A DNA stretch of 64,000 nucleotides from Nitratiruptor sp. SB155-2 (GTDB lineage Bacteria; Campylobacterota; Campylobacteria; Campylobacterales; Nitratiruptoraceae), in assembly GCF_000010325.1 (NCBI RefSeq), contig NC_009662.1, forward strand, positions 702,501 to 766,500. The letters run 5' to 3'. Under the pieces are notes generated by a model. It was not told the DNA's origin. It worked only from the letters and a program-made list of their open reading frames with translations, and did not search any database. The stretch's first letter is position 1, and every line of letters begins with the position of its first letter. This document shows positions 8,553 to 59,369 of this stretch, piece after piece. Made by a program: the position numbers and the translations under genes.

Positions 8553-8598
8553 GATTTTCCTTAAGAGAAGTTTAAAATTTGTGGAATTATAGCACAAT

Positions 8599-8613: not shown

Positions 8614-8618
8614 TGAGA

Positions 8619-41794: not shown

Positions 41795-43273
41795 ATGAGA
41801 ATCCTGTTTCTTTTCCTGATTCCTCTTATGTTGTTGAGCAATAGCGATGAATTCAATCAAACAAAAACTCCTGATCCAAACCCTCTCTTCCAATCCGTCT
41901 GGTTTTACGAAAATGGAGCAGAAAAAGAGGAACTCTATACCCTCATTGGGCAGATCAAAAAGGATAACACGCTTTTATGCAAAAATAGGCTGACAAAACC
42001 TTTGCTAAAGCTTGAAAGGTTATTGCGAGAATATAGAGTTGATGCGAATGATGATTTAAAAAATGATATTGAAAAATTGGCATATGCCCTTCAGTTGCAA
42101 TATTTTAATATACGGAACAATGGCTGTTACCGGCCAGAAATGATCTTGCAAGATCATTATCTGCCTCCAACGAAAAAATCGTACGATCATATTTTGCAAA
42201 ACCCCTATCTTGATATGTTATATGAAATTTTAAACAAGTATGAAAATATCAAAAAACGTGGAGGCTGGGGTGTGATAACCCTGAGTAACGATTATGCGTA
42301 CTTGCTTCCTGGCAAAAAATATGACGAAGTTGTCCAGCTGAGATGGCGACTTATGCAGGAGGGATATCTTAAAGATCAAAATATGACGGATACAGTTTAT
42401 GATGAGAATCTTAAATTGGCCGTAGAAGAGTTTCAAAGAAGACATTTTTTAAAACCTGATGGCATAGTTGGACCAACTACATTGAAAGTATTGAATGAGA
42501 GTGTAGAGAGTATTATTGAAAAAATTTTGATCAATATCGAACGATTGCGATGGTATTTGCAAGAGGATAAGAGTTATGTATTCGTCAATATTCCACAATT
42601 TAGGCTTTTTTTATGGCATGACGGGGATATGGTTTTTGATTCGAAAGTGATTGTTGGTAGAAAGGAGAGACCAACTCCATTAATGAGACATGAGATCTCT
42701 TATGCAGTTCTCAATCCATACTGGAGGGCTCCAAAAACGATTATTGCTCAGGATATTTTGCCAAAACTGAAAGCCGGAAAATTTGAAGAGCTTGAAAAAG
42801 AGGGGATCATCGCTTCCTTGGATCGATATGCAAATGAGACAATTCCTTTTGATTTGATTTATTGGGATGCTATAGATTTGTCCACTTTCCCCATTGTTTT
42901 TCTGCAAAAACCTGGACCGAAAAACTTTCTTGGTTTCGTGAAACTGATGTTTCCAAATAAGTATGATGTATACTTGCATGATACCAATGCAAGAGATCTG
43001 TTTAGATACTCATATCGCGCACTGAGTTCTGGATGTGTTCGAGTAGAAAAACCTATCGAACTGTTCCATCTTGTTGAAGGAACTTTAAGTTACCGAGAAA
43101 TCTTTGATAGATTGTGGGACCATCAAACAAAAAAAGTACGGATCCATCCAAAATTTCCTGTTTATTTGATGTATATAACTGTCATGAAAGAAGATGATGG
43201 CAACATCTATTTCTATCCGGACATCTATCAATTGGATAGAAAAATAAAAGATTATGTTACAATTTTGCACTAA
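41795..43273 (+). CDS. L,D-transpeptidase, YcbB/LdtD type
   Basis: 492 aa. Signal peptide MRILFLFLIPLMLLSNS; a YcbB-type N-terminal scaffold; a peptidoglycan-binding domain near 200-235 (AVEEFQRRHFLKPDGIVGPTTLKVL); YkuD catalytic domain with VYLHDTNARDLF and SSGCVRVEKP (catalytic Cys near 413). It makes 3-3 cross-links in peptidoglycan in the periplasm. The next gene is YcbK-like, the same pairing as ycbB-ycbK in E. coli. Confidence 0.9.
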   Translation: MRILFLFLIPLMLLSNSDEFNQTKTPDPNPLFQSVWFYENGAEKEELYTLIGQIKKDNTLLCKNRLTKPLLKLERLLREYRVDANDDLKNDIEKLAYALQLQYFNIRNNGCYRPEMILQDHYLPPTKKSYDHILQNPYLDMLYEILNKYENIKKRGGWGVITLSNDYAYLLPGKKYDEVVQLRWRLMQEGYLKDQNMTDTVYDENLKLAVEEFQRRHFLKPDGIVGPTTLKVLNESVESIIEKILINIERLRWYLQEDKSYVFVNIPQFRLFLWHDGDMVFDSKVIVGRKERPTPLMRHEISYAVLNPYWRAPKTIIAQDILPKLKAGKFEELEKEGIIASLDRYANETIPFDLIYWDAIDLSTFPIVFLQKPGPKNFLGFVKLMFPNKYDVYLHDTNARDLFRYSYRALSSGCVRVEKPIELFHLVEGTLSYREIFDRLWDHQTKKVRIHPKFPVYLMYITVMKEDDGNIYFYPDIYQLDRKIKDYVTILH

Positions 43274-43284
43274 GAGGAGGGTCG

Positions 43285-43824
43285 ATGGATAGAAGAGATT
43301 TTTTGAAAAAAAGTTCACTATTTAGTGTCTCGATACTTATCCCTTCATTTGCGAAAGCTGCCCAATATGAAAAAGTGCTCCAACTGTACCATGTCCATAC
43401 CGGTGAAAGACGGAAGGTAACATTTTGGCTTGACGGAGAGTATATTCCAGAAGAGATCGAGAGTTTACAATATTTTCTTCGAGATTTTAGAAATGATGAA
43501 ATACATCCAATCGATATAAAAGTTATCGAATATCTTTATGATGTATCGAAAAAATGTTCTCATGATCGTGAGATACATGTCCTCTCAGCATATCGATCTC
43601 CATCTACAAATGAGTACCTACGCCATCATGGTGGAGGTGTCGCAAAACAAAGTTATCATCTTTTTGGAAAAGCGATCGATTTTCGAATACCTGGAATTTC
43701 GCTTCATCACGTTCGAAATACTGCTTTATCACTACATAAAGGGGGTGTGGGATACTATCCAAAATCAGGTTTTATCCACATCGATAGTGGAAAACCAAGA
43801 TCTTGGAGATATCCAAAATCATAA
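43285..43824 (+). CDS. YcbK-like Tat-exported M15/DUF882 peptidase
   Basis: 179 aa. The N-terminus MDRRDFLKKSSLF is a twin-arginine signal ending at AKAA. The core has LSAYRSPSTNEYLR, SYHLFGKAIDFRI and GGVGYYPKSGFIHID: the His and Asp zinc ligands of M15 DD-carboxypeptidase-like enzymes. It probably trims peptidoglycan. GGAGGG precedes the ATG, 11 bases after the L,D-transpeptidase stop. Confidence 0.87.
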   Translation: MDRRDFLKKSSLFSVSILIPSFAKAAQYEKVLQLYHVHTGERRKVTFWLDGEYIPEEIESLQYFLRDFRNDEIHPIDIKVIEYLYDVSKKCSHDREIHVLSAYRSPSTNEYLRHHGGGVAKQSYHLFGKAIDFRIPGISLHHVRNTALSLHKGGVGYYPKSGFIHIDSGKPRSWRYPKS

Positions 43825-44270
43825 TGTTCGATTTCATCTTATATCTTCATCTATTGGCTGCTACTGTTTGGATTGGAGGAAGTGTTTTTCTCTTTGCTCT
43901 TGGAATCTTTCTACGTGATAAAGAGGCACAAAAAAAGGTCTATTTCCATGTCGGTCCCATCTATGGATATGTTGAAAGTGTTTGGTTGACAATCCTGATC
44001 ATTACTGGTTTGTGGATGTTTTTTCATATGGGACTGCAAAATGTATTTAATGGCGAAGTGAAAAGACTTGCGTTTTTGCTTCAATATAAGCTCATACTTG
44101 TTGCGCTCATTACAATTGCAACTATTGTCCATATGTATATTGCATTCAAGACAAATGGAAAAGAGCGGACGAAACTCCAACTTCTTCTGTCTCGAGGAAG
44201 TAGTATGGCCATTTTTGTACTGAATCTCATGATATTGTGGTTTGCTATGCAGATACGAACACTTTTATAG
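43824..44270 (+). CDS. CopD-like four-helix membrane protein
   Basis: 148 aa from ATG 43824, overlapping the previous stop as TAATG. Four membrane helices; [15 protein letters not shown] in the first carries the His of CopD/YkoY-type proteins. Members are linked to copper uptake or to haem-like cofactors, but no copper genes are near. Role uncertain. Confidence 0.65.
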
Positions 44271-44280
44271 AAAGGAAGCT

Positions 44281-45648
44281 ATGCGATTATCAATCATTGG
44301 TACAGGATATGTAGGGCTCGTAACTGGGGCTTGTATGGCACAGATGGGAAACAGTGTCATTTGTGTCGATATCGATGAAGAAAAAATTGAAAAACTCAAA
44401 AAAGGTATCATTCCCATTTATGAACCGGGTCTTGAAGAGATAGTCAAAGAAAATTTCAAAATAGGGACTTTGCACTTTACCACTGATATCAAAGATGCAT
44501 TAAAAAGAAGTGATATCGTGTTTATCGCAGTGGGAACGCCACAGGGTGAAGATGGGAGTGCCGATTTGCAGTATGTTTTGGCTGTGGCAAAAGATATCGG
44601 AAAATATATGACCCATCCGTTGATTGTGGTGGATAAATCTACCGTGCCTGTGGGAACTGCCGATAAGGTACGAGCGACGATCCAAAATGAACTCAAAAAT
44701 CGTCTTGAAAACGGTGAGATCACAGAAGGCGAATATCAAGAACTTATGGAATTCGATGTAGTGAGCAATCCGGAGTTTTTGAAAGAAGGTGATGCGGTCA
44801 ATGATTTTATGAAACCGGATCGTGTGGTCATTGGAGCAGATAAAGAGAAGAGCATGCAGATTCTTAAAGAGTTATATGCTCCATTTACAAGAAATCATGA
44901 GCGATTTATCGCTATGGATATACGAAGTGCAGAGCTCACAAAATATGCAGCTAATGCCATGCTTGCTACAAAAATCAGCTTTATGAATGAGATGGCTAAG
45001 ATAGCTGAAGCGGTAGGTGCTGATATCAACAAAGTGCGTGTCGGCATAGGAAGCGATAGCCGTATCGGTTATAGCTTTATCTACCCAGGTGTCGGATATG
45101 GTGGAAGTTGTTTTCCAAAAGATGTGAAAGCGCTTGAGAAGATTGCTATAGATGCTGGAGTGGAGCCAAAAATCATCAAAGCTGTAGAGGCTGTCAACAA
45201 AGAGCAAAGAGTCTATTTTCTAAACAAAATTCTTCAAAGATTTGGAGAAGATTTGCAAGGGAAAACCTTTGCGTTATGGGGTCTCAGTTTTAAACCGGAA
45301 ACAGATGATATGAGAGAAGCTCCATCGATAACGATTGTTAAAGAGTTGACAAGCCGTGGTGCCAAAATCAAAGCCTATGATCCAAAAGCGATGGAAGAAG
45401 CAAAAAATTTTTGGCTTAAAGGTATTTCTAATATTGAATATTGCGATAATAAATATGATGCGTTAAATGATGCAGATGCAATGATTCTAGTTACTGAATG
45501 GAAAGAGTTTCGCAGCCCAGATTTTATAGAGATGCAAAAGCGACTCAAAAATCCTCTCATTTTTGATGGAAGAAACCAATATAACAAAGAAAAACTCAAA
45601 GAATATGGTTTCGAGTACCATCAAGTAGGTGTGCAAGCCGCAATGTAA
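44281..45648 (+). CDS. ugd: UDP-glucose 6-dehydrogenase
   Basis: 455 aa from ATG 44281, preceded by [26 protein letters not shown] (NAD loop), [11 protein letters not shown], the catalytic Cys in [16 protein letters not shown] near 262 and [15 protein letters not shown]. It makes UDP-glucuronate for surface polysaccharide. It is the last core gene before the A+T-rich island. Confidence 0.95.
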
Positions 45649-45832
45649 AAAATAGGATCAAGATGTCATGTTTATATGAGTTTGTATAATCGTGATATCT
45701 TTTTACTATATCGCCTCTAAAGTAAATTAAGAAACAGTCATCGAACGAAATGTGACAATGATCATGATCATTAAATAAAAAGAATTGCATAATCTAAGTT
45801 AGCCGGTAAGAAACATATTATATAGCAATTAG

Positions 45833-45863
45833 CAATTATGGCATGACAAGTATGCCATAATTG
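45833..45863. repeat. Perfect 12-bp inverted repeat
   Basis: CAATTATGGCAT, a 7-base loop GACAAGT, then ATGCCATAATTG. An overlapping second symmetry, TGACAA to TTGTCA, spans 45844-45866. No U tract follows, so it looks less like a terminator than a protein or recombination site, or a mobile-element end. Confidence 0.6.
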
Positions 45864-46040
45864 TCAAGTTTACTTATTAGCTAAAAAAAGTTTTTTATTT
45901 GAAATTATGTTCCTTCTTTGTTGAATATAAAAAGCACATAATCAAGATAATTCAGATGCCTCTAATCCTACAAAAAATTTATTTTTGCCACAAAAAAGTT
46001 CTTTGATGATGGAAGAGTTGAAAAAATTTTTTAAACTTTA

Positions 46041-46084
46041 CTATGCAAATAAAATTTATTTGTATTCAAAAAAACTTTGCATAG
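46041..46084. repeat. Nested inverted repeats
   Basis: CTATGCAAA (46041-46049) and TTTGCATAG (46076-46084) are perfect arms. Inside them CAAATAAA-A-TTTATTTG is a second palindrome. The A+T bias of the region makes part of this likely by chance. No gene is adjacent. Confidence 0.5.
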
Positions 46085-46363
46085 TTTAATTTGACTCCAT
46101 AATCTCATGATTTTTCGTTGGACTTTCTCACAAAATAGAAAAAAGATATCAAAAATATGGCTATATCTATCAAGAAGCTCTTCAAGGCGTTTTGTGGAAA
46201 TAAAGCATCAAATCCATAAGTGAACATTATTTACGCTATTAAAAATAATTTAAATATTTTTAATATTAGTTTGAAACAACATAAGTGTTTAACATGTCAT
46301 ATCTTTTGAGAATATTATAATTTTTTTGGATAAAATACTAAATAAATTATTTTGGAAAAAGTT

Positions 46364-48376
46364 ATGGAAAATTTTTTTGATGCACATGATAATTGGAAAA
46401 TAGTTAAGAAATTAGTTAAAGAAGCTAAAAAAGGAGAATATTTCAGTATAAGCGATTTGAATCTTAGCAATGAGACAGAACTGTATTTAAAGAAAAACTT
46501 TTCAAAAGGTATATATGGCCATCAAAAAAAAGCTATTGAGTTATTTCAAAAAAAACAAAATATATGCATTACAACATCCACAGCTTCGGGTAAATCTTTA
46601 ATATTTCAGGTCTGCTCTCTTGAAACAATTCATAAAAATATTAATAGTAAAATTATGGCTATCTATCCTTTAAAAGCACTTTCAAATGAACAATATGAGA
46701 AATTTTCAAAAATTAGCGATATTTTAAAAGTAGGACGTATAGATGGTTCTGTGGATATATCAGAAAGAATTAATATTCTTAAAAACTCAAATATAATAAT
46801 TTTTACTCCAGATGTTATTCATGCATGGCTATTAGATAATTTATCAGATAAAAATGTTACCAACTTTTTTGCAAATCTTAATCTTGTTGTAATAGATGAA
46901 GCACATTTATATTCCGGAGTATTTGAAAGTAATAGCGCTTATGTATTCCGAAGAATAAATCATATTGTATCCCTTCTAAAAAATAATGTACCTCAATATA
47001 TTGTTGCTTCGGCAACTATTAAGGATCCAAAACAACACTTAAATATATTGTGCGGTATTGATTTTGAAATCATCGATGAAAAATTTGATACATCGCCTGA
47101 GTATGAAAAAGAAATATTGTTAGTTGAAAAATCTTCAACTCAAGATTTATTAAATGTATTGAGTGAATTATTTGCCTATATTATAAAAGAGACAGATAAA
47201 AACTTTATTACATTTGTTGATAGTAGAAAACAGACTGAATATATCGCAACTATTAGTTCTTGAAAATTATTAGAAAAAAATAGTGAAGATGAAAATGTTA
47301 ATAGTTATTTAGAGGAAATGATTGAAAAAGACAATTCCATATGTCCTTATAGATCTGGCTATGAGGAAGAGGATAGACATAACATTCAAAATAAATTAAA
47401 TAATGGAACTTTAAGAGGCATAATAAGTACTAGTGCTTTAGAGGCTGGTATTGATATTCTGCATTTAGATATCGTGATATTAATCGGAATTCCAGATTCT
47501 GCAACAAGTTTATATCAAAGAATAGGAAGAGTAGGAAGGCAAAAAAAAGGTACTATTATAGTTATAAATGATGGTTCCTCTATTAGCAATGCAGTTTTTT
47601 CTAATAAAATAGACTTTTTTAATATCCCATTTCAAGAGAGTGCATTATATTTAGAAAATCATCGAATTGAATATATTCATGTTTTATGTTTGGCAAGAGA
47701 AAATGGTGAGCATGATCAAGTTTGTCAACCAAGAAACTGTGGAATAAAAGTTTATGAAACTAAAATAAATTTTCCTAAATCTTTCATAGAACTTTGTAAA
47801 AAAGAAATAGCTGGTGAAATATCAACAGAGTTTCAAATTATGAAATCTCAATGTGGTGATGACCCTAATCATTTTTTCCCTTTAAGAGACATTGATGATC
47901 AGTATAAAGTAGTTTATAGGTCTGGTCCAAATATAAAACATTTAGGAACATTGTCTTATTCACAAGTTATGAGAGAAGCTTATCCGGGAGCTGTTTATTA
48001 TTATAAAAAGCCATATAGGGTTTACAATATAGATCACTACAAAAAAACAATTGAAGTAAGAAAAGAAAAATATTATACTACCCAGCCTATAACTTTTGAC
48101 CCTATCATAAGACCTAATTTCTCACATGAAAATATTTTGAATGCAATAAAAATTAGTGACATATATATAGTAGAAACAGTTTTGCAAATAAGTGAACTTA
48201 TAAGTGGATTTAAAGAAAGACGCGGTCCCAATGAAATTGAATTTGATTATCCATTAAATGGAATAAACAGCCTATTTTATAAGAAAAAATTTTTTGCAAG
48301 AAATTACTTTACTACGGGTATTGTAATAATAAATAAAACCTTTAATGATTTGAATAATAAAGAACTCCTATACTGA
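46364..48376 (+). pseudogene. DEAD/DEAH-box helicase (YprA/MrfA-like), interrupted and truncated
   Basis: ATG 46364. Motif I TSTASGKSLIF, II VIDEAHLY, III ASATI in the first half, then after an in-frame TGA (47261-47263) the same frame continues with ISTSALEAGIDI (motif V) and YQRIGRVGRQKKG (motif VI). LSYSQVMREAYPGAVYYYKKPYRVYNID is the region before the DUF1998 zinc domain in YprA-like helicases. That domain is missing: the IS3-family element begins at 48374 and supplies the stop. A single substitution (for example of TGG or CGA) explains the TGA. Helicases of this type occur in DISARM, Dpd and some BREX loci. Confidence 0.82.
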
Positions 48377-48435
48377 CCCCCAGAATAACTGCACAAGATA
48401 TAATACATAAAGAGTGAAAGATAAAAGGGTCAGCA

Positions 48436-48756
48436 ATGGAGAAATTAAATAAAAACCAAGAAGAGATAAAGCGCTTTACAGCAAAGAAGAAAGCTTCCAT
48501 AGTCATGGATATTTTTCAAGGTAAAACAACAGTATCTGAAGTTGCGAGAAAGTATGATTTGACACCTGGAGCAATAGAGGAGTGGATGGAAGAGGCTTGC
48601 AGAGGGATGGAGAATCAGCTTCGAGCCAGACCTAAAGATATAGCTGCCATGTATGAAGAGAAGATAAAAGATATGAAGGCAGTTATAGGTGAATTGACAT
48701 TGGAGAATATCGCATTAAAAAAGTACGACGCTCTGTTCGGAAAAGAGAAGAAGTGA
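48436..48756 (+). CDS. IS3-family transposase OrfA
   Basis: 106 aa. Helix-turn-helix of the IS3 OrfA type: KASIVMDIFQGKTTVSEVARKY then DLTPGAIEEWMEEA, followed by a Leu-rich coiled coil (ELTLENIALKKYDALF) that dimerises. OrfB starts at its stop in the -1 frame. Confidence 0.88.
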   Translation: MEKLNKNQEEIKRFTAKKKASIVMDIFQGKTTVSEVARKYDLTPGAIEEWMEEACRGMENQLRARPKDIAAMYEEKIKDMKAVIGELTLENIALKKYDALFGKEKK

Positions 48757-49571
48757 TGCAAGTTCAGAGCGAGATGAGAAATGAAGGTTACTCAATCAGC
48801 ATCACAAAGCTTTGTTCTCTTTTTGATCTTCCACGCAGGAGCTTTTATTATAAACCAATTAAAAGAATGCAAAAACTAGATGAGGGGCGTGTTAAAAAAG
48901 TCAAAGAGATGATTGAAAAGTTTCCAACGTATGGCTATCGTCGTTTAGCTTTGCTGCTTGGGATGAACAAAAAAGCGGTGCAGCGCATTCTGCAACTAAA
49001 AAGTTGGCAGGTAAGAAAGCGTTCCAAAGGCCATAGGGCAAGAGCCAAAATGATGCCTTCGCGTTCACACTATCCCAATCAAAGATGGGCCATTGATATG
49101 ACCCGTGTATACAGTAGCGGTGATGGCTGGAGTACTTTGGCTTGTGTGATTGATACTTATACAAGAGAAATCGTTGGATGGAGACTTTCTAAAAGCGGTA
49201 AAGCAACAACAGCAGAGGCAGTTTTGCAAGAAGGTCTAATCTATCGCTTTGGAAAACTCAAACGACTACAAGAGCCAATTATCCTTCGAAGCGATAACGG
49301 CCTAGTATTTAGCAGTAAATCGTTCACCAAAACAGCTCAAGATTACAATTTTACTCAGGAATTTATCACTCCCTATACTCCTGAACAGAATGGCATGATT
49401 GAGAGATTTTTCCGAACCATAAAGGAAGAGTGTATCTGGCACTACAATTTCAAATCACTCAAGGAGGCAAACAAAATCATTGGAGAATGGATCAATTTTT
49501 ACAACCAAAAACGAAAACATTCAGCGCTGCAGTACAAAACACCTGCGGAAGTGTTTCGTTTAGTGGCTTAG
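48756..49571 (+). CDS. IS3-family transposase OrfB (DDE integrase)
   Basis: 271 aa from ATG 48756, which overlaps the OrfA stop. N-terminal HTH_21-like part, then the DDE core: Asp in QRWAIDMTRV, Asp in LRSDNGLVF, Glu in QNGMIERFFRTIKEE, with the following Lys/Arg. A fusion OrfAB by -1 frameshifting is usual in the family; the A-rich GGAAAAGAGAAGAAG near the overlap could serve. Both frames are intact, so the element may be active. Confidence 0.9.
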   Translation: MQVQSEMRNEGYSISITKLCSLFDLPRRSFYYKPIKRMQKLDEGRVKKVKEMIEKFPTYGYRRLALLLGMNKKAVQRILQLKSWQVRKRSKGHRARAKMMPSRSHYPNQRWAIDMTRVYSSGDGWSTLACVIDTYTREIVGWRLSKSGKATTAEAVLQEGLIYRFGKLKRLQEPIILRSDNGLVFSSKSFTKTAQDYNFTQEFITPYTPEQNGMIERFFRTIKEECIWHYNFKSLKEANKIIGEWINFYNQKRKHSALQYKTPAEVFRLVA

Positions 49572-49593
49572 GTGTGCAGAAAGTAAGGGGTCA

Positions 49594-49644
49594 TTACATA
49601 TTCCTAAGCCTTCAAAAGTTAAAGATATTGAAGAGGAGCTATAA
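49594..49644 (+). pseudogene. 3' tail of a protein gene stranded beyond the IS element
   Basis: From the first base after the IS, an open frame reads LHIPKPSKVKDIEEEL then TAA, ending directly against the Panacea-domain gene and containing its Shine-Dalgarno GAGGAG. It looks like a real protein C-terminus and is best explained as the end of the helicase, the intervening DUF1998 region having been deleted. A short tail cannot prove this. Confidence 0.45.
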
Positions 49645-50133
49645 ATGGCTACACTTAAAGATATTATATATTATATTTTAAAAAAGTATCCAAATAAAAA
49701 ACATCTCTCAAATGCAAGATTAACAAAATTAATTTATTTAATAGACTGGTATTCTGCAATTCACTATAACAAACAAATTTCTAATATAAAATGGTATTTT
49801 GATAATTATGGACCATTTGTATGGGATGTATTGGATGAAATTAAAAAAAATCCAAAATTATTTAAAATAAAACATACAACTAATTTTTTTGGAAATAACA
49901 AAAAAATAATTGAAAATATTGAAAATAATTACAATCCAAATATCAATGATCATGAAAAGCAGGTAATAAACAAAATTATAGATATTACCAAAGATAAGAA
50001 CTGGTCAGCCTTTATAAATTTAGTCTATTCGACTTACCCAATATTAGTATCTGAAAAGTATTCTTATTTAAATTTAATAAATAAAGCAAAAAAATTTAGA
50101 GAATTAAAAAAGTTAAAAAAGGATAATAAATAA
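49645..50133 (+). CDS. Panacea/SocA-like domain protein
   Basis: 162 aa. HLSNARLTKLIYLIDWYSAIHYNKQI and KWYFDNYGPFVWDVLDEI are the Panacea (DUF4065, SocA-like) signature. Such proteins are antitoxins for many unrelated toxins, often in defence or phage loci. No separate small toxin stands beside it; the flanks are the IS and the pglX remnant. GAGGAG is placed 8 bases before the ATG. Very A+T-rich codons. Confidence 0.78.
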   Translation: MATLKDIIYYILKKYPNKKHLSNARLTKLIYLIDWYSAIHYNKQISNIKWYFDNYGPFVWDVLDEIKKNPKLFKIKHTTNFFGNNKKIIENIENNYNPNINDHEKQVINKIIDITKDKNWSAFINLVYSTYPILVSEKYSYLNLINKAKKFRELKKLKKDNK

Positions 50134-51921
50134 ATGCCGATATTTATAAGATTAACGAATTATAAAAGTAGTGAAGAGAAAGAGAGAGGTTTTTTTGATC
50201 CAAAAAATAGGTTTATTGCAAAACAGGAGGTTTTTTTTAAGATTCCAGGAGCTCCTATTGCGTATTGGGTGAGTGATAGGGTTAGGGAGATTTTTGAGAA
50301 AAGTGAGAAGCTGTTAAATAATGCAAAATTCAGTAATGGTATAAATACAGGGGACAATGATAATTTTTTAAAACTATGGTATGAAATTGAATATTATAAA
50401 ATTGGATTTAATATTTCAAATTTTTTTGAAGCAAAAAATTCAATGAAAAAATGGTTTCCTTATAACAAAGGTGGGGAATTTCAAAAATGGTATGGTAACA
50501 ATGAATATCTCATAAATTGGGAAAATGATGGAGAAAAAATTAAAAAATTTGCAGTTATAAGAAACAAAGGGGGTCATTGGTCAAGATATTTATGTGGAAT
50601 GGATTATCATTTTAAAGAATCTATAACTTGGTCATTTGTTAGTTCTTCTAATTTTGGAATAAGATTTAAAGAAAAAGGATTTATGTTTGATGTTGGTGGC
50701 TCTTCGATGTTTCCCAATAAAAAAGAATATTTCTATTATTTTGGAGCATTTTTTAATACCAAAATATCTTTTTATTTTTTAAAAAATATAAATCCTACAT
50801 TAAATTTTCAAACAGGAAATATAGCAAAACTACCCATAATCTTCCCAAAATCCGAACAAACAAAACAAAAAATCGACCAACTAACTGAGGAGTGTATAGA
50901 CATCTCAAAAGAAGAGTGGGACAGCAGAGAAACATCGTGGGATTTTACTAAAAATGAGCTTTTAAAACATAAAACCGATGGAAAGATTGAAACAGCCTAT
51001 GAAAATTATTGTGAGTTTTGGAGAGAGAAGTTTTATAAACTTCATCAAAATGAAGAAGAGTTAAACAGACTTTTTATCAATATTTATGAATTGCAAGATG
51101 AGCTAACCCCTGATGTGCCTTTAGAAGATATAACGATACTTAAAAAAGAAGCAAAAATAGTAAATGGTGAACTTGAATTTAATAAAGATGAGATTATAAA
51201 GCAATTTATCTCTTATGCAGTTGGTGTGATGTTTGGACGATATTCTTTAGATCACGAAGGTTTACGCATTGCCGATATGGGAGCCAGCATAAAAGAGGCA
51301 AATGAAAAGTTTGACATTCAAAATACTACATTTGAAATAGATGATGACAATATCATCCCTGTTTTGGAAGATGAGTATTTTAGTGATGATATAGTAGCAA
51401 GGTTTAGAAAATTTTTAGAGATTACTTTTGGTAAAGAACATTTGATAGAAAATCTTAATTTTATCCAAGAAGCTCTTGGTATGGATATAAGAAAATATTT
51501 TTATAAGGAGTTTATAAAAGATCATATCCAAAGGTACAAAAAAAGACCGATTTATTGGATGATTACCTCCCCAAATAAAACATTTCAAGCATTGATTTAT
51601 ATGCATAGATACTATCCGGATATTTTTGCAAAAGTTAGAAACGATTATCTTTTAGAGCTAATTGTAAAGCTTAATACTCAAAAAGAGTATTTATATAATC
51701 AGTTAGATAGTGCTATTTCAAATAGCGAAAAGAAAAAGATTGATAAGCAGATAAAAGAGATAGAAAAAAAGCTAAAAGAGCTTTATGAATTTGATAAAAA
51801 CTATCTTGAAAAATATGCCAATAATCTGATAGACATAAATTTGGATGATGGAGTAAAGGTAAATTATTGTAAATTCAAAGATATTTTGTATCCAATCAGT
51901 GGACTTTGCAAAGGGAAATAA
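50134..51921 (+). CDS. pglX: PglX C-terminal half without methylase domain (BREX)
   Basis: 595 aa, about half the usual PglX length of near 1200. It begins just at the target-recognition part (FAKQEVFFKIPGAPIAYWVS region near 30-50) and keeps KKRPIYWMITSPNKTFQALIYMHRY near 470-490 and the C-terminal coiled coil. The N-terminal adenine-methylase part with the SAM loop and NPPY motif is absent. Either a deletion remnant or a specificity cassette awaiting recombination. The frame is open throughout. It ends SGLCKGK, copied by the direct repeat. Confidence 0.8.
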   Translation: MPIFIRLTNYKSSEEKERGFFDPKNRFIAKQEVFFKIPGAPIAYWVSDRVREIFEKSEKLLNNAKFSNGINTGDNDNFLKLWYEIEYYKIGFNISNFFEAKNSMKKWFPYNKGGEFQKWYGNNEYLINWENDGEKIKKFAVIRNKGGHWSRYLCGMDYHFKESITWSFVSSSNFGIRFKEKGFMFDVGGSSMFPNKKEYFYYFGAFFNTKISFYFLKNINPTLNFQTGNIAKLPIIFPKSEQTKQKIDQLTEECIDISKEEWDSRETSWDFTKNELLKHKTDGKIETAYENYCEFWREKFYKLHQNEEELNRLFINIYELQDELTPDVPLEDITILKKEAKIVNGELEFNKDEIIKQFISYAVGVMFGRYSLDHEGLRIADMGASIKEANEKFDIQNTTFEIDDDNIIPVLEDEYFSDDIVARFRKFLEITFGKEHLIENLNFIQEALGMDIRKYFYKEFIKDHIQRYKKRPIYWMITSPNKTFQALIYMHRYYPDIFAKVRNDYLLELIVKLNTQKEYLYNQLDSAISNSEKKKIDKQIKEIEKKLKELYEFDKNYLEKYANNLIDINLDDGVKVNYCKFKDILYPISGLCKGK

Positions 51922-51928
51922 TGGATAT
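51904..51928. repeat. 25-bp direct repeat, left copy
   Basis: CTTTGCAAAGGGAAATAATG plus GATAT, identical to 52668-52692. It spans the last codons and stop of pglX and what would have been the first codons of pglZ (ATGGATAT, here followed by a stop three codons on). It therefore marks the left edge of the inserted AbiEii-type cassette. Confidence 0.9.
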
Positions 51929-51958
51929 GTTATAATTTAAAAAAATAATGGCAAGAAA

Positions 51959-52321
51959 ATGAGAGATACAGTTTTTAATCCTAAAGATTATGAGATAAAC
52001 TATTTTTGGCAAACCAGAAGCTCATCAGTACAAAGTAAAAGCTCTCTTATAAGGGCTGTACTAAAAGGATTAAATAAAAAAGATATTTTTACTATTTGTA
52101 AAGTATATGGAATAAAAACTGTTCAAAATGAGCTTGATAGCTATTATAAAGAGTTATATAAAAAAGGATTTTATGATTTTAGAGGATTAAAAGTGCCTCT
52201 AAAACAAAGAAATTATAAAAAAGATCCTCTCTATAGAGAAATAAAAGGTTATATATGTGACTTCGCAAGTCAAAAAGATTTTAGACATTTTCGCAAAAAA
52301 AGAGTTTTTAAAAGAAAATGA
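51959..52321 (+). CDS. Small protein paired with an AbiEii-type gene (putative antitoxin)
   Basis: 120 aa. FNPKDYEINYFWQTRSSS near the N-terminus and a helical body; basic C-terminus RHFRKKRVFKRK. It is not the classical AbiEi winged-helix antitoxin. Small genes of this shape often precede AbiEii-like nucleotidyltransferases, and the two frames overlap by 65 bases, so an antitoxin role is inferred from position only. Confidence 0.55.
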   Translation: MRDTVFNPKDYEINYFWQTRSSSVQSKSSLIRAVLKGLNKKDIFTICKVYGIKTVQNELDSYYKELYKKGFYDFRGLKVPLKQRNYKKDPLYREIKGYICDFASQKDFRHFRKKRVFKRK

Positions 52322-52685
52322 TCTGTATTTTATAGGTGGAACTGCATTAAGCTACTACTTAAATCATAGAATTTCTGAAGATATAGATTTCATATCTTCC
52401 GTTCCTCTCAATCATCGCTTAATAAAAAAAGAGATGTTATCTCTCAATGCCAAATTTATAGAAGATGAAAATGCCAGTAGATTAAGAATTGCCGGTGATA
52501 TTGCTCAAAATATTCATTCTACAATAATCGATAAAGAAAATCTATTCAATTTTGTAAAAAATATGTCTGAACCTATCGATGATGAGACGGTATATCTAAA
52601 AGAAAATTCAAATAAATATTTATTGTTTGAAGATTTAAAAGAAACATTGATAAAAACAATTAAAGGGCTTTGCAAAGGGAAATAA
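52257..52685 (+). CDS. AbiEii/AbiGii-type nucleotidyltransferase, C-terminally cut
   Basis: 142 aa from GTG 52257, with AAAGG upstream. YFIGGTALSYYLNHRISEDIDF is the nucleotidyltransferase core (GGTAL and the DxDF pair) of type IV toxin AbiEii. Family members usually exceed 200 aa; here the later helical region with its conserved Lys-Asp is missing and the protein ends GLCKGK, exactly the end of PglX, because the frame runs into the 25-bp repeat. The stop overlaps pglZ as TAATG. Confidence 0.75.
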   Translation: MTSQVKKILDIFAKKEFLKENDLYFIGGTALSYYLNHRISEDIDFISSVPLNHRLIKKEMLSLNAKFIEDENASRLRIAGDIAQNIHSTIIDKENLFNFVKNMSEPIDDETVYLKENSNKYLLFEDLKETLIKTIKGLCKGK

Positions 52686-52692
52686 TGGATAT
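52668..52692. repeat. 25-bp direct repeat, right copy
   Basis: Identical to 51904-51928 and placed 764 bases later. This copy holds the stop of the cut AbiEii-like gene and the working start codon of pglZ, including its Shine-Dalgarno AAAGGG. Confidence 0.9.
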
Positions 52693-55096
52693 AGAAAGTA
52701 GACTTAAAGAGCTTTTTAATGAGCAAAAAATCATCTTTTGGTACGATGAAAATGGAGAGCTAAAAGATGAGTTTGAAAATATCGAAATTGATGGAGTTAA
52801 AAAGCTTGAAATTGATCAGAATGAGTTTGGCATAAAGGTAGAGGTTTTAACAAACAAAAAACAAAAATATCTCATATACTCTCCATATCCTGCTCCAAAA
52901 GATGAAGATAATTGGCTACTCGATCTAAATCTAGCAAATTATATCTTTAGAGCTGATAGGGCATCTTTGATTTTAGATACATTGGGATTGGATCTTGAGT
53001 TTAAAGAGTTTATAAAAGAACATCTAAAATTTTTCAACTCCAAAAAAAGAATGCAGGAGCTAAAAGCAAAGCTTGAAAAAGAAAATAAAGAGTCGCTTAT
53101 TATCAAAATGGCTTCCATACTGCTAAAAAGTGATGAGACGATGGAATCAGTTCTTTTGAAGATTTTTGAGAAGGGAAGTGACGAGCTTGAAAAGTTTGGA
53201 CTTGATCGCGAGATTTTTGAAATAGCTTCTAAAAAATTCGGATTCGAAATAAAAAGTGTTGATGATCTTTTATATAAACTGTTTGAAAACTATTTTGCTT
53301 ACAATGTTTATGGGAAAAGTCATTATAAAGTCGATGCAAGAGTCTTTTTGAAGCAATGGATGGAAAATATAAAATATCAAAATCTTTTTAAACAGATAAG
53401 TCAAAAGATAGCAAAAGATTTACATATTGTAAATGAGCTTGAAAAGCTTGCAATAGAACAAAAGAGCCGTTGTGAAGTTTATGAAGAGTGTGAGCAAGAG
53501 ATTATCAAATGGATCCTTGGCTCTTTGGTTGCAAAAGAGAATTTAAAAGAGATTTTAGAGCTTATAAAATCAAGAGAAGACAAGATATGGTTTAAAGAGT
53601 ACGAAAATATCTATAAAGCTCTTTTTTTTGCGGCCAAATTGTTTGATACTCAAAGTAGATATTCATTTAGTAGCTTTAAAAATGCCATTAATGAATATGC
53701 TTCAATACATTATAAAGCAGATCTTTATTATAGAAAATACCATTATTTTAGAGAAAAATCAGAAAAAGTTGAGCTTTTAAAGGTTTTGGATGAGGAGATA
53801 GAAAATTTCTATCTCAATGCGGTTTTAAGAGAAGCCAATGATCAGTTTGATAAGTTTGTAAAAGAGTATAAAGTCGATGAAGAGCATCAGCAAAACTTTT
53901 TTAAAAAGTTTGTAAAGCCTTATATAGATAGTAACAAAAAGTTATTTGTAATTATCAGCGATGCTTTGCGTTACGAAGCTGCTAAAGAGCTTGAGAATAT
54001 TATAAACAAAATGGATAAATTTGAGTCTGAAACTTCATATCTCATATCTTCCTTGCCAAGTTATACACAGCTTGGAATGGCAGCACTTTTACCTCACAAG
54101 AAATTATCTCAAGAAGATAGCGATCTTGTTTTGGTTGATGATAAAAATTCTAGTGGAATTGTAAATAGAGATAAAATTCTAAAAAGTTACAGTGAGTCTT
54201 TTAGTGCAATTTGGTATGAAGATTATCTAAAACTAGATAGAGAAAAAGGAAGAGAACTGACTAAAAACAACTCTTTAATTTATATCTATCATGATGAGAT
54301 AGATAAAACTGGCGAAAAAGATGAAACGAATACATTTAATGCAGTTCAAAGCACATTTGATACTTTAATCAAACTCATCAAGCAGATCAACAATTTCAAT
54401 GGATATAATATTTTAATTGTAAGCGATCATGGATTTTTGTCTACGAAATCTCCAACAAAAGCAAGTGAGTTTTGTCCTAAACCAGAAGGTGATATTATTA
54501 GGTTAAATAGGCGATTTGTAATTGGAAAAAATTTTACAAATAAAAGTTGCACCCACTCATTTAATGCAAATGAACTTGGAATAGAGAGTGATAATAGCTA
54601 TTTGATAGCAAAATCAATCAATAAAATAAGAGTGCAAGGTGGAGGAAATAGATATGTCCATGGAGGAGCTACATTACAAGAGATTGTAATTCCTGTTATA
54701 AAGATAAGAAAAAAAAGAGTAAGTGATGTAAGAGATGTAGAGGTTGATATTTTACCTATAAGTACAATTTCTACAAATATCGTCAATATAACTTTGTATC
54801 AAAAAGAGCCGATAAGCGAAAAAGTGAGACCAGTTACTTTGAAGATCGCGTTTGAACTTGATGGAGAAATTTTATCTGATGTGCAAACAGTGACTTTTGA
54901 TAAGAGTGATGAATATAGTGAAAACAGAGAGGTAAAAGTGCCTTTGACATTCAAAGGTGAAATTAAAAATTATAATAATAAAACTATAAAGCTTGTTGCT
55001 AGGAAAGTAAAAGAAAATTCTTCTGTCGAGCCTATATATAAAGAGTTGGATGTGAAAGTATCTATTGCCTTTTTTAATGAATTTGATGAGTTTTAG
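52685..55096 (+). CDS. pglZ: BREX alkaline-phosphatase-like protein PglZ
   Basis: 803 aa from ATG 52685, preceded by AAAGGGAAATA. N-terminal IIFWYDENGELKDEF and SPYPAPKDEDNWLLDLNLAN are typical of BREX-1 PglZ. The phosphatase-like domain shows VIISDALRYEAAKEL near 430 and ILIVSDHGFLST near 585, with metal-binding Asp/His. PglZ binds PglX in BREX and is required for defence. The gene appears intact. Confidence 0.9.
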   Translation: MDIESRLKELFNEQKIIFWYDENGELKDEFENIEIDGVKKLEIDQNEFGIKVEVLTNKKQKYLIYSPYPAPKDEDNWLLDLNLANYIFRADRASLILDTLGLDLEFKEFIKEHLKFFNSKKRMQELKAKLEKENKESLIIKMASILLKSDETMESVLLKIFEKGSDELEKFGLDREIFEIASKKFGFEIKSVDDLLYKLFENYFAYNVYGKSHYKVDARVFLKQWMENIKYQNLFKQISQKIAKDLHIVNELEKLAIEQKSRCEVYEECEQEIIKWILGSLVAKENLKEILELIKSREDKIWFKEYENIYKALFFAAKLFDTQSRYSFSSFKNAINEYASIHYKADLYYRKYHYFREKSEKVELLKVLDEEIENFYLNAVLREANDQFDKFVKEYKVDEEHQQNFFKKFVKPYIDSNKKLFVIISDALRYEAAKELENIINKMDKFESETSYLISSLPSYTQLGMAALLPHKKLSQEDSDLVLVDDKNSSGIVNRDKILKSYSESFSAIWYEDYLKLDREKGRELTKNNSLIYIYHDEIDKTGEKDETNTFNAVQSTFDTLIKLIKQINNFNGYNILIVSDHGFLSTKSPTKASEFCPKPEGDIIRLNRRFVIGKNFTNKSCTHSFNANELGIESDNSYLIAKSINKIRVQGGGNRYVHGGATLQEIVIPVIKIRKKRVSDVRDVEVDILPISTISTNIVNITLYQKEPISEKVRPVTLKIAFELDGEILSDVQTVTFDKSDEYSENREVKVPLTFKGEIKNYNNKTIKLVARKVKENSSVEPIYKELDVKVSIAFFNEFDEF

Positions 55097-55104
55097 GGGA
55101 TATT

Positions 55105-57126
55105 ATGAGTTTAAATGAAAAATTAACTCAAAATTTTTTAGGCAAAGTAGTTAGAAAAGATCTAACAAAGCTTATTAAAGAGGGCGCCAATGTTCCTATA
55201 TATGTTTTGGAGTATCTGCTTGGAATGTATGCTGCAACAGATGATGAAGAGCTTATCAAAGAGGGAGTAAATAAGGTTAAGGAGATCTTGGCGAAAAATT
55301 ATGTAAGACCTGATGAAAAAGAGATAGTAAAATCAAGGATAAAAGAGAGAGGCAGATACAAAATAATTGATAAGATTTTTGCGAAACTCAATGAAAAAGA
55401 AAATGTTTATGAAGCAGAATTTAGCAATCTCGGAATAAAAAAAGTGATAATTGATGAAAGTTATATAAAAAAATATCAAAAACTTTTAGCTGGAGGAGTG
55501 TGGGCAATTATTACTTTAGAATATTTTTTTGAAGAAAACTCAAAATATTCCCCTTTTCATATAGAAGAACTTAAACCTATTCAGATGCCAAATTTTGATT
55601 TTGAAGAGTTTATTGCTAAAAGAAAAAATTTTACCCGTGAAGAGTGGATGGATATAGTTATTAGAAGTACGGGAATGGAGCCAACGCAATTTGAAGATAA
55701 TGCAAAATGGCATCTCATTGCCAGACTCATTCCTTTTGTAGAAAATAACTATAATATGTGTGAATTAGGACCTAGAGGGACAGGAAAAAGTTTTGTCTAT
55801 AAAGAGTTATCTCCATACTCTATACTAATCAGCGGCGGACAGACTACGGTAGCAAATCTATTTTATAACTTAAGAGAAAGAACGGTAGGTTTGGTTGGAA
55901 GCTGGGATGTTGTAGCTTTTGATGAAGTTGCCGGAATAAAGTTTAAAGATAAAGATGGCATACAGATAATGAAAGATTATATGGAAAGTGGGAGTTTTGC
56001 GAGAGGTAAGCAACAAGTACAGGCAAAAGCCTCTTTTGTATTTGTTGGAAATATTGATGGCAGTATTGAAAATATTGTGAAAACCTCTCATCTATTAAGT
56101 CCTTTCCCACAAGAGATGATTGATACTGCTTTTTTTGATAGATTTCACAACTACATTCCTGGTTGGGAAATTCCTAAAATGAGACCGGAATTTTTTACCA
56201 ATGAATATGGATTTATCACGGATTATATGGCTGAGTGGATGAGAGAGCTTCAAAAATATAATTTTTCCAACGCAATAGATAAATATTTTAAATTAGGGCG
56301 TGACCTTAATCAAAGAGATGTGAAAGCTGTTAAAAAAACTGTGAGTGGGTTACTAAAAATTTTACATCCTGATGAAAGCTATACAAAAGATGATGTCAGA
56401 GATGCTCTTGAATACGCTTTGATAGCAAGGCGAAGAATCAAAGAGCAGTTAAAAAAAATAGGAGGTATGGAATTTTATGATGTTAATTTTTCATACATAG
56501 ATCTATCTGAAGGAAGTGAAATTAGAGTTAGTGTACCTGAAAGTAGTGCTAAAACATTGATTCCATCAGATACATTACCTCCCGGAACTGTTTATACAAT
56601 TGGCGTAAATCCTGAAAATGGACATAAGGGTTTAATTCGATTAGATTTGCAGGTTATTTCTGGAAGTGGCAAATTTGAGCATACTGGATTTAATAATTCA
56701 GAAGTCAAGGAAGAGATAAAAGAGGCGATCAGTTTTATACAGGCAAATCTTCATAGAATTTCAGCCAATGCCAATTTTAAAAATTATGATTACCATTTAA
56801 AAGCTACTGATATTCAATCAATTGGAAAATTCAAAAATATCGAACTATCAATTTTTATAAGTCTATGTAGTGGGATTTTACAAAAAAGTCTACTTCCTCA
56901 AATGGTGATTTTGGGAAGTATGAGTATAGGTGGAGCAATTATTGGAAGTCAAAATCTTGCTGATTTTATGCAAATTGCAGGTGATAGCGGGGCTAAGCGT
57001 ATTTTGATTCCAGCGATTGATATGGCTCAAATTGGAAAAGTACCAGCTGATTTGTTAAGCAGGTTTCAGTTGATTATATATTCTGATCCAATCGATGCGG
57101 TTTTTAAAGCTTTGGGAGTAGAGTAA
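55105..57126 (+). CDS. brxL: BREX Lon-like AAA protein BrxL
   Basis: 673 aa. N-terminal LGKVVRKDLTKLIKEGANVPIYVLEYLLG is typical of BrxL; Walker A GPRGTGKS near 230, Walker B VVAFDEVAG near 275; the C-terminal part resembles a Lon protease domain, with GSMSIGGAIIGSQNLADF in the region of the catalytic Ser. Known BrxL forms DNA-binding rings. Placed last in the operon as in BREX-1. Intact. Confidence 0.92.
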   Translation: MSLNEKLTQNFLGKVVRKDLTKLIKEGANVPIYVLEYLLGMYAATDDEELIKEGVNKVKEILAKNYVRPDEKEIVKSRIKERGRYKIIDKIFAKLNEKENVYEAEFSNLGIKKVIIDESYIKKYQKLLAGGVWAIITLEYFFEENSKYSPFHIEELKPIQMPNFDFEEFIAKRKNFTREEWMDIVIRSTGMEPTQFEDNAKWHLIARLIPFVENNYNMCELGPRGTGKSFVYKELSPYSILISGGQTTVANLFYNLRERTVGLVGSWDVVAFDEVAGIKFKDKDGIQIMKDYMESGSFARGKQQVQAKASFVFVGNIDGSIENIVKTSHLLSPFPQEMIDTAFFDRFHNYIPGWEIPKMRPEFFTNEYGFITDYMAEWMRELQKYNFSNAIDKYFKLGRDLNQRDVKAVKKTVSGLLKILHPDESYTKDDVRDALEYALIARRRIKEQLKKIGGMEFYDVNFSYIDLSEGSEIRVSVPESSAKTLIPSDTLPPGTVYTIGVNPENGHKGLIRLDLQVISGSGKFEHTGFNNSEVKEEIKEAISFIQANLHRISANANFKNYDYHLKATDIQSIGKFKNIELSIFISLCSGILQKSLLPQMVILGSMSIGGAIIGSQNLADFMQIAGDSGAKRILIPAIDMAQIGKVPADLLSRFQLIIYSDPIDAVFKALGVE

Positions 57127-57144
57127 GTGATGAGTTTGACAAGG

Positions 57145-57167
57145 CTCGAACCTGTGACCAACCAGTT
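57145..57167 (-). repeat. Decayed partial copy of the adjacent CAU tRNA
   Basis: CTCGAACCTGTGACCAACC plus AGTT matches 57201-57223 of the intact tRNA at 21 of 23 positions, covering the T arm, variable loop and 3' anticodon strand. Weaker similarity extends to the left. It lies between brxL and the tRNA and may be an old attachment-site copy or a degraded tandem tRNA. Confidence 0.6.
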
Positions 57168-57183
57168 CTATCCTCAAAATGCT

Positions 57184-57260
57184 TGGTGGGCTCGGCAGGA
57201 CTCGAACCTGCGACCAACCGGTTATGAGCCGGTTGCTCTAACCAACTGAGCTACGAGCCC
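57184..57260 (-). tRNA. tRNA with CAT anticodon (elongator Met, or Ile2)
   Basis: 77 nt with encoded CCA; acceptor GGGCTCG pairs with CGAGCCC. It lacks initiator features. CAU is read by elongator tRNA-Met or, after lysidine modification, tRNA-Ile; the body GTAGCTCAGTTGGTTAGAGC is closer to elongator Met. Its 3' end faces the BREX island. It is 1 base from the rodA stop and may be co-transcribed with it. Confidence 0.93.
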
Positions 57261-57261
57261 T

Positions 57262-58365
57262 TCAAAGTTGTCTGGAATTATACAAAAATCTAAATCTGAA
57301 TGCAAGAAGATGCTCTAAAATACCGAATAAAATCATAAAATTGATAAAACTGCTTCCTCCATAACTCATAAATGGTAACGGAACACCCACAACCGGAGCC
57401 AATCCCACTGTCATGGCGATATTGACGCTCATATAGGTAAAAATCAAAAGAGCGATACTGGCAGCCACGACCTGCGTGAAAAAGTCTCCTTTTAATTTGA
57501 CATAAATACTAAAAAGATGCAGTATAAGAAGTCCATAGAGAAAAAGAAGCAGCATTGCACCGAAAAAACCGAAACGTTCTATAAAATATGCAAAAATAAA
57601 ATCACTAGTGGCGATAGGAAGAAATTTGAGCTGGGTCTGTGTTGCCTCTTGGGATGGCTTGCCGGTCAATCCTCCCGAACCTATCGCAATGATTGATTGT
57701 TGGACGTGATAGCTCGGTTTTTCACTTAAAAAATCTTCTATTCTTTTCTTTTGATAGTCATGTAAAAGATATTTATATGAAACGGGAACCATGAAAGAAA
57801 ATATCATAAAAAGAGTGATCCATATTTTCCAATGGACTCCGATGATAAATAGCACACCATACCCGATAATGAGCAAAATCAAGGCTGTTCCAAGATCTGG
57901 CTCTTTTGCGATGAGTAGAAATGGAAGCAGGATATAAAAAGAGATTTTGAAAAATTCCTTCCATCCGTAGCCGGATTTAGGGGGAGGGTTGTTATGAACA
58001 AGGTAGGCAAGCATGAGGATGAAAGCCGGTTTGAAAAGTTCCGATGGTTGAAGGGTAAAATGTGTAAAAGGGATTTCAAGCCATCTTTTGGCACCGAGTT
58101 TACTCACACCAAAAAGATCTACACTAATCAGCAAGACAATCATAAACCAATACATTGATGGGATGAGCCACTTATACTCTCTAATAGGAGAGAGAAAAGC
58201 GATAACAAAACTAGCAAATCCAAGCGCGTAGTAGATCATCTGTTTGTGGGCTAAAACGGGATTGACATCTTTTATGAGGTAATGCGAAATAATAAGAAAT
58301 GGTATAATCAAAATTAAAAGCACAGTATCGAAATGCAAGAAAATTCGTCTGTCGATTCCTATCAT
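57262..58365 (-). CDS. rodA: RodA/FtsW-family SEDS glycosyltransferase
   Basis: 367 aa from ATG 58365, the RodA length; about ten membrane helices. Conserved PSELFKPAF, KEPDLGTALIL, GSGGLTGKPSQEATQTQLKFLPIATSDFIFAYFIE and VGVPLPFMSYGGSS. It polymerises peptidoglycan during elongation with a class B PBP. RodA is preferred over FtsW by FLPIATSDFIFA and length. The Shine-Dalgarno is weak. Confidence 0.9.
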   Translation of the reverse strand: MIGIDRRIFLHFDTVLLILIIPFLIISHYLIKDVNPVLAHKQMIYYALGFASFVIAFLSPIREYKWLIPSMYWFMIVLLISVDLFGVSKLGAKRWLEIPFTHFTLQPSELFKPAFILMLAYLVHNNPPPKSGYGWKEFFKISFYILLPFLLIAKEPDLGTALILLIIGYGVLFIIGVHWKIWITLFMIFSFMVPVSYKYLLHDYQKKRIEDFLSEKPSYHVQQSIIAIGSGGLTGKPSQEATQTQLKFLPIATSDFIFAYFIERFGFFGAMLLLFLYGLLILHLFSIYVKLKGDFFTQVVAASIALLIFTYMSVNIAMTVGLAPVVGVPLPFMSYGGSSFINFMILFGILEHLLAFRFRFLYNSRQL

Positions 58366-58409
58366 GAGGCTACTTTTTTTTTCACACAATTATATCTTAA
58401 AGGAGATTA

Positions 58410-59369
58410 TTGGAAAAAATAACATTTACAAATAGGGAAAAAGAGCGACTTGATAAAGCACTTGCCAAGAAGTTGCAAAAACCAAGAAACCAAATCGAAC
58501 AACTTATTAAACAGGGGTATGTTCGCATCAATGGAAAGATCGAGAAGAAGGCTGGAAGTAAGCTTAAAAGTGGCGATTTGGTAGAAGTGACCATCCCTGA
58601 ACCTAAAGTTTCACAGCCAAAAGATGTCCATTTCGATGTGGAAAGAATTTATGAAGATGAGGATATATTGGTCTTAAACAAACCTGCCGGCCTTGTTGTC
58701 CATCCGGCCCCAAGTGTCAAAGAGCCTACGCTTGTGGATTGGCTCAAAGCAAACGATATTTCTCTTTCAACACTCAGTGGAGAAGAGCGCCATGGTATCG
58801 TGCATAGACTTGACAAGGAAACGAGCGGATTGATTGTAATTGCTAAAAACAATGAGACCCATCAGGCTCTATCGAAGCAGCTACAGGATAAAAGTATGGG
58901 TCGATACTATCTGGCAATTGTCGAGCCGCCTTTAAAAGAGGACCTCATAATAGAAAAACCGATTGCAAGAAATCCCAAAAATAGATTGAAAATGGGAGTA
59001 GTGGAGGGCGGAAGATATGCTAAATCCGCTTTTGTAAAACTAACGACGAGTAAAAATAATAAATATGAATTAATCGGAGCAAAACTTTTTACTGGCAGGA
59101 CACATCAAATAAGAGTCCATTTGGCTTCGATAAACCGCCATATTCTGGGTGATAGTTTATATGGCTTTAAGAGCAAAAGCGTTACAATACCTAGAGTTTT
59201 TTTACATGCTTATATACTCTATCTCAAGCATCCAAAGAGTGGGGAAAAGATGCGTTTTTTGGCACCTGTTCCGGAAGATATGCTTGACTTTTTGCAAAAA
59301 TATTTCGAGGAGAATATTGATGAAACGATTCATGTGGATAGCTTTATTGGGCGTTTTGCTTCTTTTTAG
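58410..59369 (+). CDS. rluD: Ribosomal large subunit pseudouridine synthase, RluD type
   Basis: 319 aa, starting at TTG 58410, five bases after AAAGGAG. S4 domain at about 10-70 (KALAKKLQKPRNQIEQLIKQG), then the catalytic GIVHRLDKETSGLIV with Asp near 138, and TGRTHQIRVHLA. It modifies 23S rRNA helix 69. The end overlaps the start of the next gene by 50 bases, unusual in this compact genome but consistent with both reading frames. Confidence 0.92.
   Translation: MEKITFTNREKERLDKALAKKLQKPRNQIEQLIKQGYVRINGKIEKKAGSKLKSGDLVEVTIPEPKVSQPKDVHFDVERIYEDEDILVLNKPAGLVVHPAPSVKEPTLVDWLKANDISLSTLSGEERHGIVHRLDKETSGLIVIAKNNETHQALSKQLQDKSMGRYYLAIVEPPLKEDLIIEKPIARNPKNRLKMGVVEGGRYAKSAFVKLTTSKNNKYELIGAKLFTGRTHQIRVHLASINRHILGDSLYGFKSKSVTIPRVFLHAYILYLKHPKSGEKMRFLAPVPEDMLDFLQKYFEENIDETIHVDSFIGRFASF

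Follow-up and report, generated by a model that had tools for sequence, protein, structure and literature searches.

What does a gene that encodes only the recognition and C-terminal half of PglX represent, the scar of a broken enzyme or one subunit of an enzyme made from two genes? The question is raised by positions 50134-51921 of a 64,000-nucleotide stretch of Nitratiruptor sp. SB155-2 (NC_009662.1, positions 702,501 to 766,500; hereafter the window), where such a gene, the C-half, precedes pglZ and brxL of a type 1 bacteriophage exclusion (BREX) system. The C-half is probably the intact specificity half of a naturally two-gene PglX, left as an orphan when the front part of the operon was lost.

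The window gene runs from an ATG at 50134 to a TAA at 51919-51921, with 595 codons and no internal stop. In a PDB sequence search, the protein matches PglX/BrxX from residues 617/618 to 1216/1196 only (E-values of 7e-103 and 5e-101), and chains of PglX/BrxX are its sole matches at E<=0.001; an S-subunit domain is not listed in a Pfam scan. The predicted structure (mean predicted local distance difference test score (pLDDT) of 91.7, predicted template modelling score of 0.88) aligns with residues 617-1221 of 8c45 with a Z-score of 39.5 over 577 residues and a root-mean-square deviation of 3.5. The half-length PADLOC model PDLC02516 (593 positions) covers the protein end to end (3e-237). The recognition domain and the BrxX C-terminal domain typical of the PglX/BrxX family are both present, and neither the window gene nor its split relatives join methylase and recognition domains in a single polypeptide. 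As judged by invariant positions, the C-half is not decayed: five of 152 otherwise invariant positions are broken (3.3%), compared to 2.0-7.5% in nine other C-halves. The original prediction of an intact 595-codon frame, with its own start and limited to the recognition/C-terminal half, holds far beyond chance; the half corresponds to PglX/BrxX ~617-1221.

Type 1 BREX loci with a two-gene PglX occur in Campylobacterota, Deferribacteraceae, Chlorobiaceae, Methylococcaceae, Buttiauxella and methanogens. Among 397 genomes of the phylum, a protein search identifies seven with a match to the window C-half: the single-contig window genome itself (G000), three with near-full-length matches (G251, G355 and G361), the sister species G029 with a partial remnant, and two with weak partial matches (G308 and G387). 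Each of the three near-full-length C-halves is a stand-alone gene whose first residue corresponds to that of the window gene. In G251 (locus L010) and G361 (locus L011), a separate upstream gene encodes the methylase half with its NPPY motif, the type 1 BREX system is whole, and unrelated genes, here termed cargo (two in L010, four in L011), lie between the halves. For G355, the N-half is found on a different contig (L100), where a RhuM gene follows immediately after its end. The same first residues (MxTYIRLTDYKxS) open the stand-alone C-halves of G251, G361, G355, G464, G474, G480, G578 and G706, as well as those of a Campylobacteraceae and a Deferribacteraceae metagenome-assembled genome. 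NPPY is present in the separate N-halves whose sequences were inspected, with direct readings in G251 and G361, and brxA-B-C and pglZ-brxL are complete around the halves in G251, G361, G474 and G578. The order is N-half, cargo and C-half in G474, G480 and G578; L019 and L134 (G706) have the opposite arrangement, with the C-half first, then cargo, then the N-half. The suggestion that the window gene is a split form, and not only a deletion scar, is thus borne out by relatives in which complete BREX loci have separate halves and the same C-half start.

A contig scan with a window-type query, sorted by a fixed rule, yields 66 loci; the query favours window-like forms, and the counts are therefore not population frequencies. 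N and C matches fall within one open frame in 52 loci and in separate frames in eight (L018, L019, L021, L032, L033, L034, L070 and L072), while four have the C-half only (L016, L026, L054 and L057) and two are cut at a contig edge (L075 and L078). An N-half tail lies directly upstream of the C-half in L057, and two cargo-like frames upstream in L054 resemble, by eye, the AlbA_2 and DUF1016 genes of L032. Matches to PDLC02516 occur in nine of the 228 genomes of the G251 family, with five stand-alone C-halves (G251, G361, G464, G474 and G480), two fused proteins (G435 and G450) and two partial matches (G497 and G511); in two of the 104 genomes of the G355 family, both stand-alone; and, within the window's own family (22 genomes), only in G000 and as the G029 remnant. 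The N-half model PDLC02525 matches seven of 398 genomes of the order, none of them G000: frames of 532-634 residues in G251, G355, G361, G706 and G723, a broken frame in G753 and a fused-length protein in G682. L135 (G753) and L072 are frameshifted and are excluded as evidence for intact halves, and L104 (H1), which is without annotation, is not used. Methanosarcina acetivorans, a control genome, matches both half models (model matches only). None of 234 candidate stretches of viral contigs encodes a relative.

The models PDLC02525 (607 positions, N-half) and PDLC02516 are the best matches of all five N-halves and four C-halves that were scanned. Predicted alone, the N-half folds confidently (pLDDT 89.9), as does the C-half, and their folds match BrxX/PglX residues 1-636 and 617-1221, respectively. 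Gene gaps around the halves are operon-like, with 34 of the 38 measured between -60 and +15 bases and the other four at 303, 50, 40 and -83 bases. On a tree of the C-terminal domain (43 rows, after seven of 50 rows, all fused, were dropped for a missing motif; support of the quick kind), the split state needs four changes; shuffles need 11 on average. The window C-half falls in a starred group of six split rows and one fused row, L017, which is nested inside. The fused PglX of L017 (L017:3322-6657) has an N-part that is 78% identical to the N-half of G251, and may represent a re-fusion of halves. The ratio of nonsynonymous to synonymous substitution rates (dN/dS) is 0.08-0.43 for N-halves and 0.16-0.39 for C-halves (pairs with dS <2.5); with dS mostly near or above 1, these values are only a rough sign of constraint.

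Joining of the halves by a programmed frameshift, by read-through or by an intein is rejected on three grounds: the halves are separated by unrelated genes, they can occur in reversed order, and no intein-like extension is seen by eye at the cut in ten N-half ends and fourteen C-half starts. An assembly artefact is unlikely as the source of the split because G251, G474 and G578, each a single contig, have split genes. L102 (H21) is rejected as a split example, as it has only the reverse-transcriptase gene, in another island. L101 (E. coli ET896) and L103 (a Vibrio plasmid) have two overlapping pglX frames without cargo and are treated as probable frameshifts; in L101 (12020-16042), pglX is annotated as two overlapping genes, the first of which is marked frameshifted.

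The halves are separated at one of two cut points, for which N-half ends and C-half starts were read from the alignment itself, as automatic values are distorted by stray tail placement. At site A (Campylobacterota and the Deferribacteraceae locus), the N-half stops just past an FVLxK strand and the C-half starts with MxTYIRLTDYKxS or close variants. At site B (Methylococcaceae, Chlorobiaceae, Methanolobus and Buttiauxella), the N-half also includes the following strand (RLVDGxSEAEK or RLSDFKGA), and the C-half has its start immediately before FxRASxADFKKIPGSPIAYW. On the solved BrxX, sites A and B map to ~607-617 and ~636-650, and the hinge loops are placed at 638-675 in the available portion of PMC11842806. 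The N-halves of L010, L019 and L121 have their own version of a strand that is also carried by the C-half; in alignment with BrxX, the L019 N-half model covers 1-636 and the window C-half begins at 617. Such an overlap would not result from one cut in a single gene, but would result from mixing of halves. The end of the methylase domain has two alternative forms, GARAFxxIGGEVVQ and DNMVMGIAFGTSAT (L010:6127-7764, L019:7626-9287 and L121:6089-7768), both of which occur in split and fused PglX alike, as if the segment had been exchanged.

The cargo, which is often defence-like, and the window genes are listed in Table 1. Cargo was named by Pfam and PADLOC in a scan that did not extend to L119, L120, L121, L134 or the first of the L070 genes between the halves. 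No Pfam family was found for five between-halves proteins (the second of L010, that of L018, the second of L019, the 751-residue protein of L070 and the 187-residue protein of L072), and a 107-residue cargo protein of L011 has a sub-threshold FliG_N match only. New defence genes might be sought in the cargo zone. In the window, the SocA/Panacea gene occupies the position where relatives have cargo between the pglX halves, and its stop codon abuts the ATG of the C-half with a spacing of 0. Both pglZ and brxL, as expected of type 1 BREX, are present at the locus, with invariant positions broken at 10 of 107 in PglZ and at 31 of 398 in BrxL, the highest of the BrxL set.

Table 1. Genes of the window around the PglX C-half, and cargo between the PglX halves of related loci.
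Location	Feature	Coordinates	Strand	Details
Window	Superfamily 2 helicase gene	46352..48376	+	frameshifted (47263/47318), cut by the insertion sequence
Window	IS3-family insertion sequence	48369..49598	+	orfA 48436-48756, orfB 48753-49571
Window	SocA/Panacea-domain protein	49645..50133	+	Pfam SocA_Panacea 2.6e-18
Window	PglX C-half, own gene	50134..51921	+	target recognition domain, spacer helices, C-terminal domain
Window	120-residue protein	51959..52321	+	upstream of the AbiEii-like gene; 91% identical in sister species G029
Window	AbiEii-like nucleotidyltransferase	52257..52685	+	142 residues, compared to 227 in G029
Window	pglZ	52670..55096	+	Pfam PglZ 1.6e-53; PADLOC PDLC02547 2.8e-218
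Window	brxL	55105..57126	+	Pfam BrxL_ATPase 5e-148; PADLOC PDLC02506
L010	Cargo			DUF3644
L011	Cargo			DUF6161, HEPN pEK499_p136, KAP NTPase
L100	Cargo			RhuM
L019	Cargo			AAA_21 ATPase
L021, L032, L033	Cargo			Schlafen/AlbA_2 with HATPase_c_4; L032 additionally YhcG/DUF1016 nuclease
L034	Cargo			as L021, without the AlbA_2 part
L072 (Buttiauxella izardii)	Cargo	6954-9956		UG5-nitrilase defence reverse transcriptase; C-half frameshifted there

The front of the system is missing from the window genome. A tblastn search of window positions 43001-59000 with brxA, brxB, brxC and N-half proteins gives a best E-value of only 0.017, and none of brxA, brxB and brxC is found at the locus. The N-half is not found in G000 with: (i) the full-length PglX model at E<=1, (ii) a real N-half protein or (iii) the model PDLC02525, with N-halves of other genomes detected in the same runs for (ii) and (iii). 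No PglX methylase domain with NPPY is found in G000, and a genome-wide search for BrxC, run without a positive control, finds none.

The insertion sequence (IS) and the helicase remnant may point to how the front was lost. The IS3-family element has a second copy elsewhere in the genome (98.8-99% identical), and no matching target duplication is found at the window copy under either reading of the IS ends. The helicase has an intact homologue of 873 residues in G056, the only further match at 1e-10 across the 397 phylum genomes. To the right of the IS, DNA matching the G056 helicase is not found. Thus, brxA, brxB, brxC and the N-half were probably lost through an IS3-associated deletion that ended in the cargo zone. 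The sister species G029 is colinear on both flanks, is without window positions 45806-51751 and 52731-56894, and retains the C-half's final ~60 residues, the 120-residue gene, AbiEii at full length and the brxL 3' end. The genus, therefore, once had BREX at this site and is losing it via different deletions.

In the proposed mechanism, one gene of the complete relatives would make the methylase half with NPPY and the second the recognition half. Docking of the two products is most likely, as the C-half begins with what is the last methylase-domain strand of fused PglX (BrxX ~617-624), and the docked halves may act as an M and S pair within the type 1 BREX complex. Accessory defence genes would use the region separating the two genes as a site in which to land. 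In the window, the deletion would have ended inside the cargo zone such that the C-half cistron, pglZ and brxL were left whole, and the system, having lost the operon front, is predicted to be unable to methylate. More broadly, and with a somewhat lower degree of confidence, these loci are proposed to be a broad type 1 BREX variant whose PglX truly consists of two subunits, M-type and S-type as in type I restriction. This form would have originated or been exchanged repeatedly, with two cut points in the segment that links the two domains; the inter-gene space would dock accessory defence genes, and the recognition halves would travel as their own genes, with the window gene as an orphan S-type gene. 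On this two-subunit reading, specificity could be swapped without touching the catalytic subunit.

Certain points weigh against an orphaned half of a two-gene enzyme. The group also contains fused PglX (L017; likewise G435 and G450), such that the split is not fixed and the split or fused state has changed several times. That two separate halves would form an active enzyme is inferred from conservation, operon packing, reversed order and fold; the Salmonella C-terminal domain could not be expressed alone in a published attempt (PMC11341690). The pglZ, brxL and C-half genes are intact, and the remnant could still do something. The searches for brxA and brxB covered the window, and that for brxC lacked its same-run control. 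The evidence for the IS-associated route consists of the missing target duplication and the cut helicase, with no intermediate seen.

Other explanations were weighed. A fused pglX may have lost its 5' half, with an internal ATG opening the remainder by chance; the N-half and brxA/B/C are missing alongside, an IS lies upstream and the fused relatives just named exist. Such a plain scar is, however, unlikely, as the start coincides with the stand-alone C-half starts of intact loci, the SocA/Panacea gene abuts the ATG like the cargo of intact split loci, and the window row groups with split rows in the tree. The original prediction had associated simple deletion with the lack of any N-half and with relatives that carry a full pglX at this place; the N-half is indeed absent, but what the sister species has at this site is a remnant in a more advanced state of decay and no full-length pglX. 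It is also doubtful that the C-half is kept for function with PglZ and BrxL or another methylase, for example in binding DNA sites without methylation: the three frames are intact and the invariant positions of the C-half are kept, but brxB is absent from the locus, brxC is not found, the adjoining abiEii gene carries a deletion, and the sister species has lost nearly everything.

The two further proposals of the original prediction fare worse. A methylase half elsewhere in the genome is in keeping with halves that need not maintain their order (reversed in L019 and L134), but is highly improbable given that the three kinds of search of this single-contig genome come up empty. Inversion of pglX is known from Lactobacillus, and the C-half might be viewed as a silent storage copy for segment exchange by inversion; this can be given hardly any weight, as no second DNA copy of the C-half region is found in the genome, no inverted repeat has an arm inside 50134-50400, and no long inverted repeat is found at the locus. 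The hallmarks of a phase-variable (inverting) pglX, a second copy or inverted repeats, are thus lacking.

An orphaned half of a two-gene PglX, the preferred explanation, can be related to known systems. The PglX/BrxX of type 1 BREX (Salmonella 8c45 and E. coli 9ewz) are like both halves in sequence, fold and gene neighbourhood, but are one polypeptide, whereas here two genes have others between them. The HsdM/HsdS enzymes of type I restriction likewise have a catalytic subunit and a separate recognition subunit; the C-half fold matches S subunits with Z-scores of 9-13 (PacII M1M2S, 1ydx, 1yf2 and 3okg) and the N-half fold matches type I M subunits with a Z-score of ~19. By contrast to HsdS, the C-half has the S-type recognition fold without belonging to the family by sequence, carries the BrxX C-terminal domain and PglX sequences, and is found in a locus type with PglZ, BrxL and BrxC. 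The PADLOC models PDLC02525 and PDLC02516 describe the same halves end to end, but are labelled PglX only, and the library text shown does not state a split pair. The DISARM helicase/DUF1998 is also a defence enzyme encoded by a single gene or by two, depending on the system, yet it is of another protein family and cargo between its halves is not described in the available portion of PMC12458937. A 2026 survey of BREX diversity presents BrxX as one protein, and the words 'split' and 'fission' do not occur in the main text (PMC12839542). No description of a split PglX was found in the literature searched (including the available portions of PMC12707154 and PMC13326643, with Goldfarb 2015 and supplements outside the coverage), and within this coverage a PglX in two subunits that resemble type I M and S is not found in print.

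A two-subunit PglX, if true, would allow a direct test of BREX DNA recognition and complex build, provide separable specificity subunits and bring BREX closer to type I restriction. Annotation pipelines may wrongly label such halves as broken. Possible loss of the other end of the protein is noted in L074 (7696-10251) and L076 (8249-10720), where PglX frames of 851 and 823 residues have matches that end after the recognition domain, and from which the C-terminal domain may have been lost. The AbiEii-like gene of the window has an in-frame deletion of 85 codons relative to G029. An AbiE-like pair also appears, by eye, to lie between the C-half and pglZ in L121; thus, this position may be a second cargo place.
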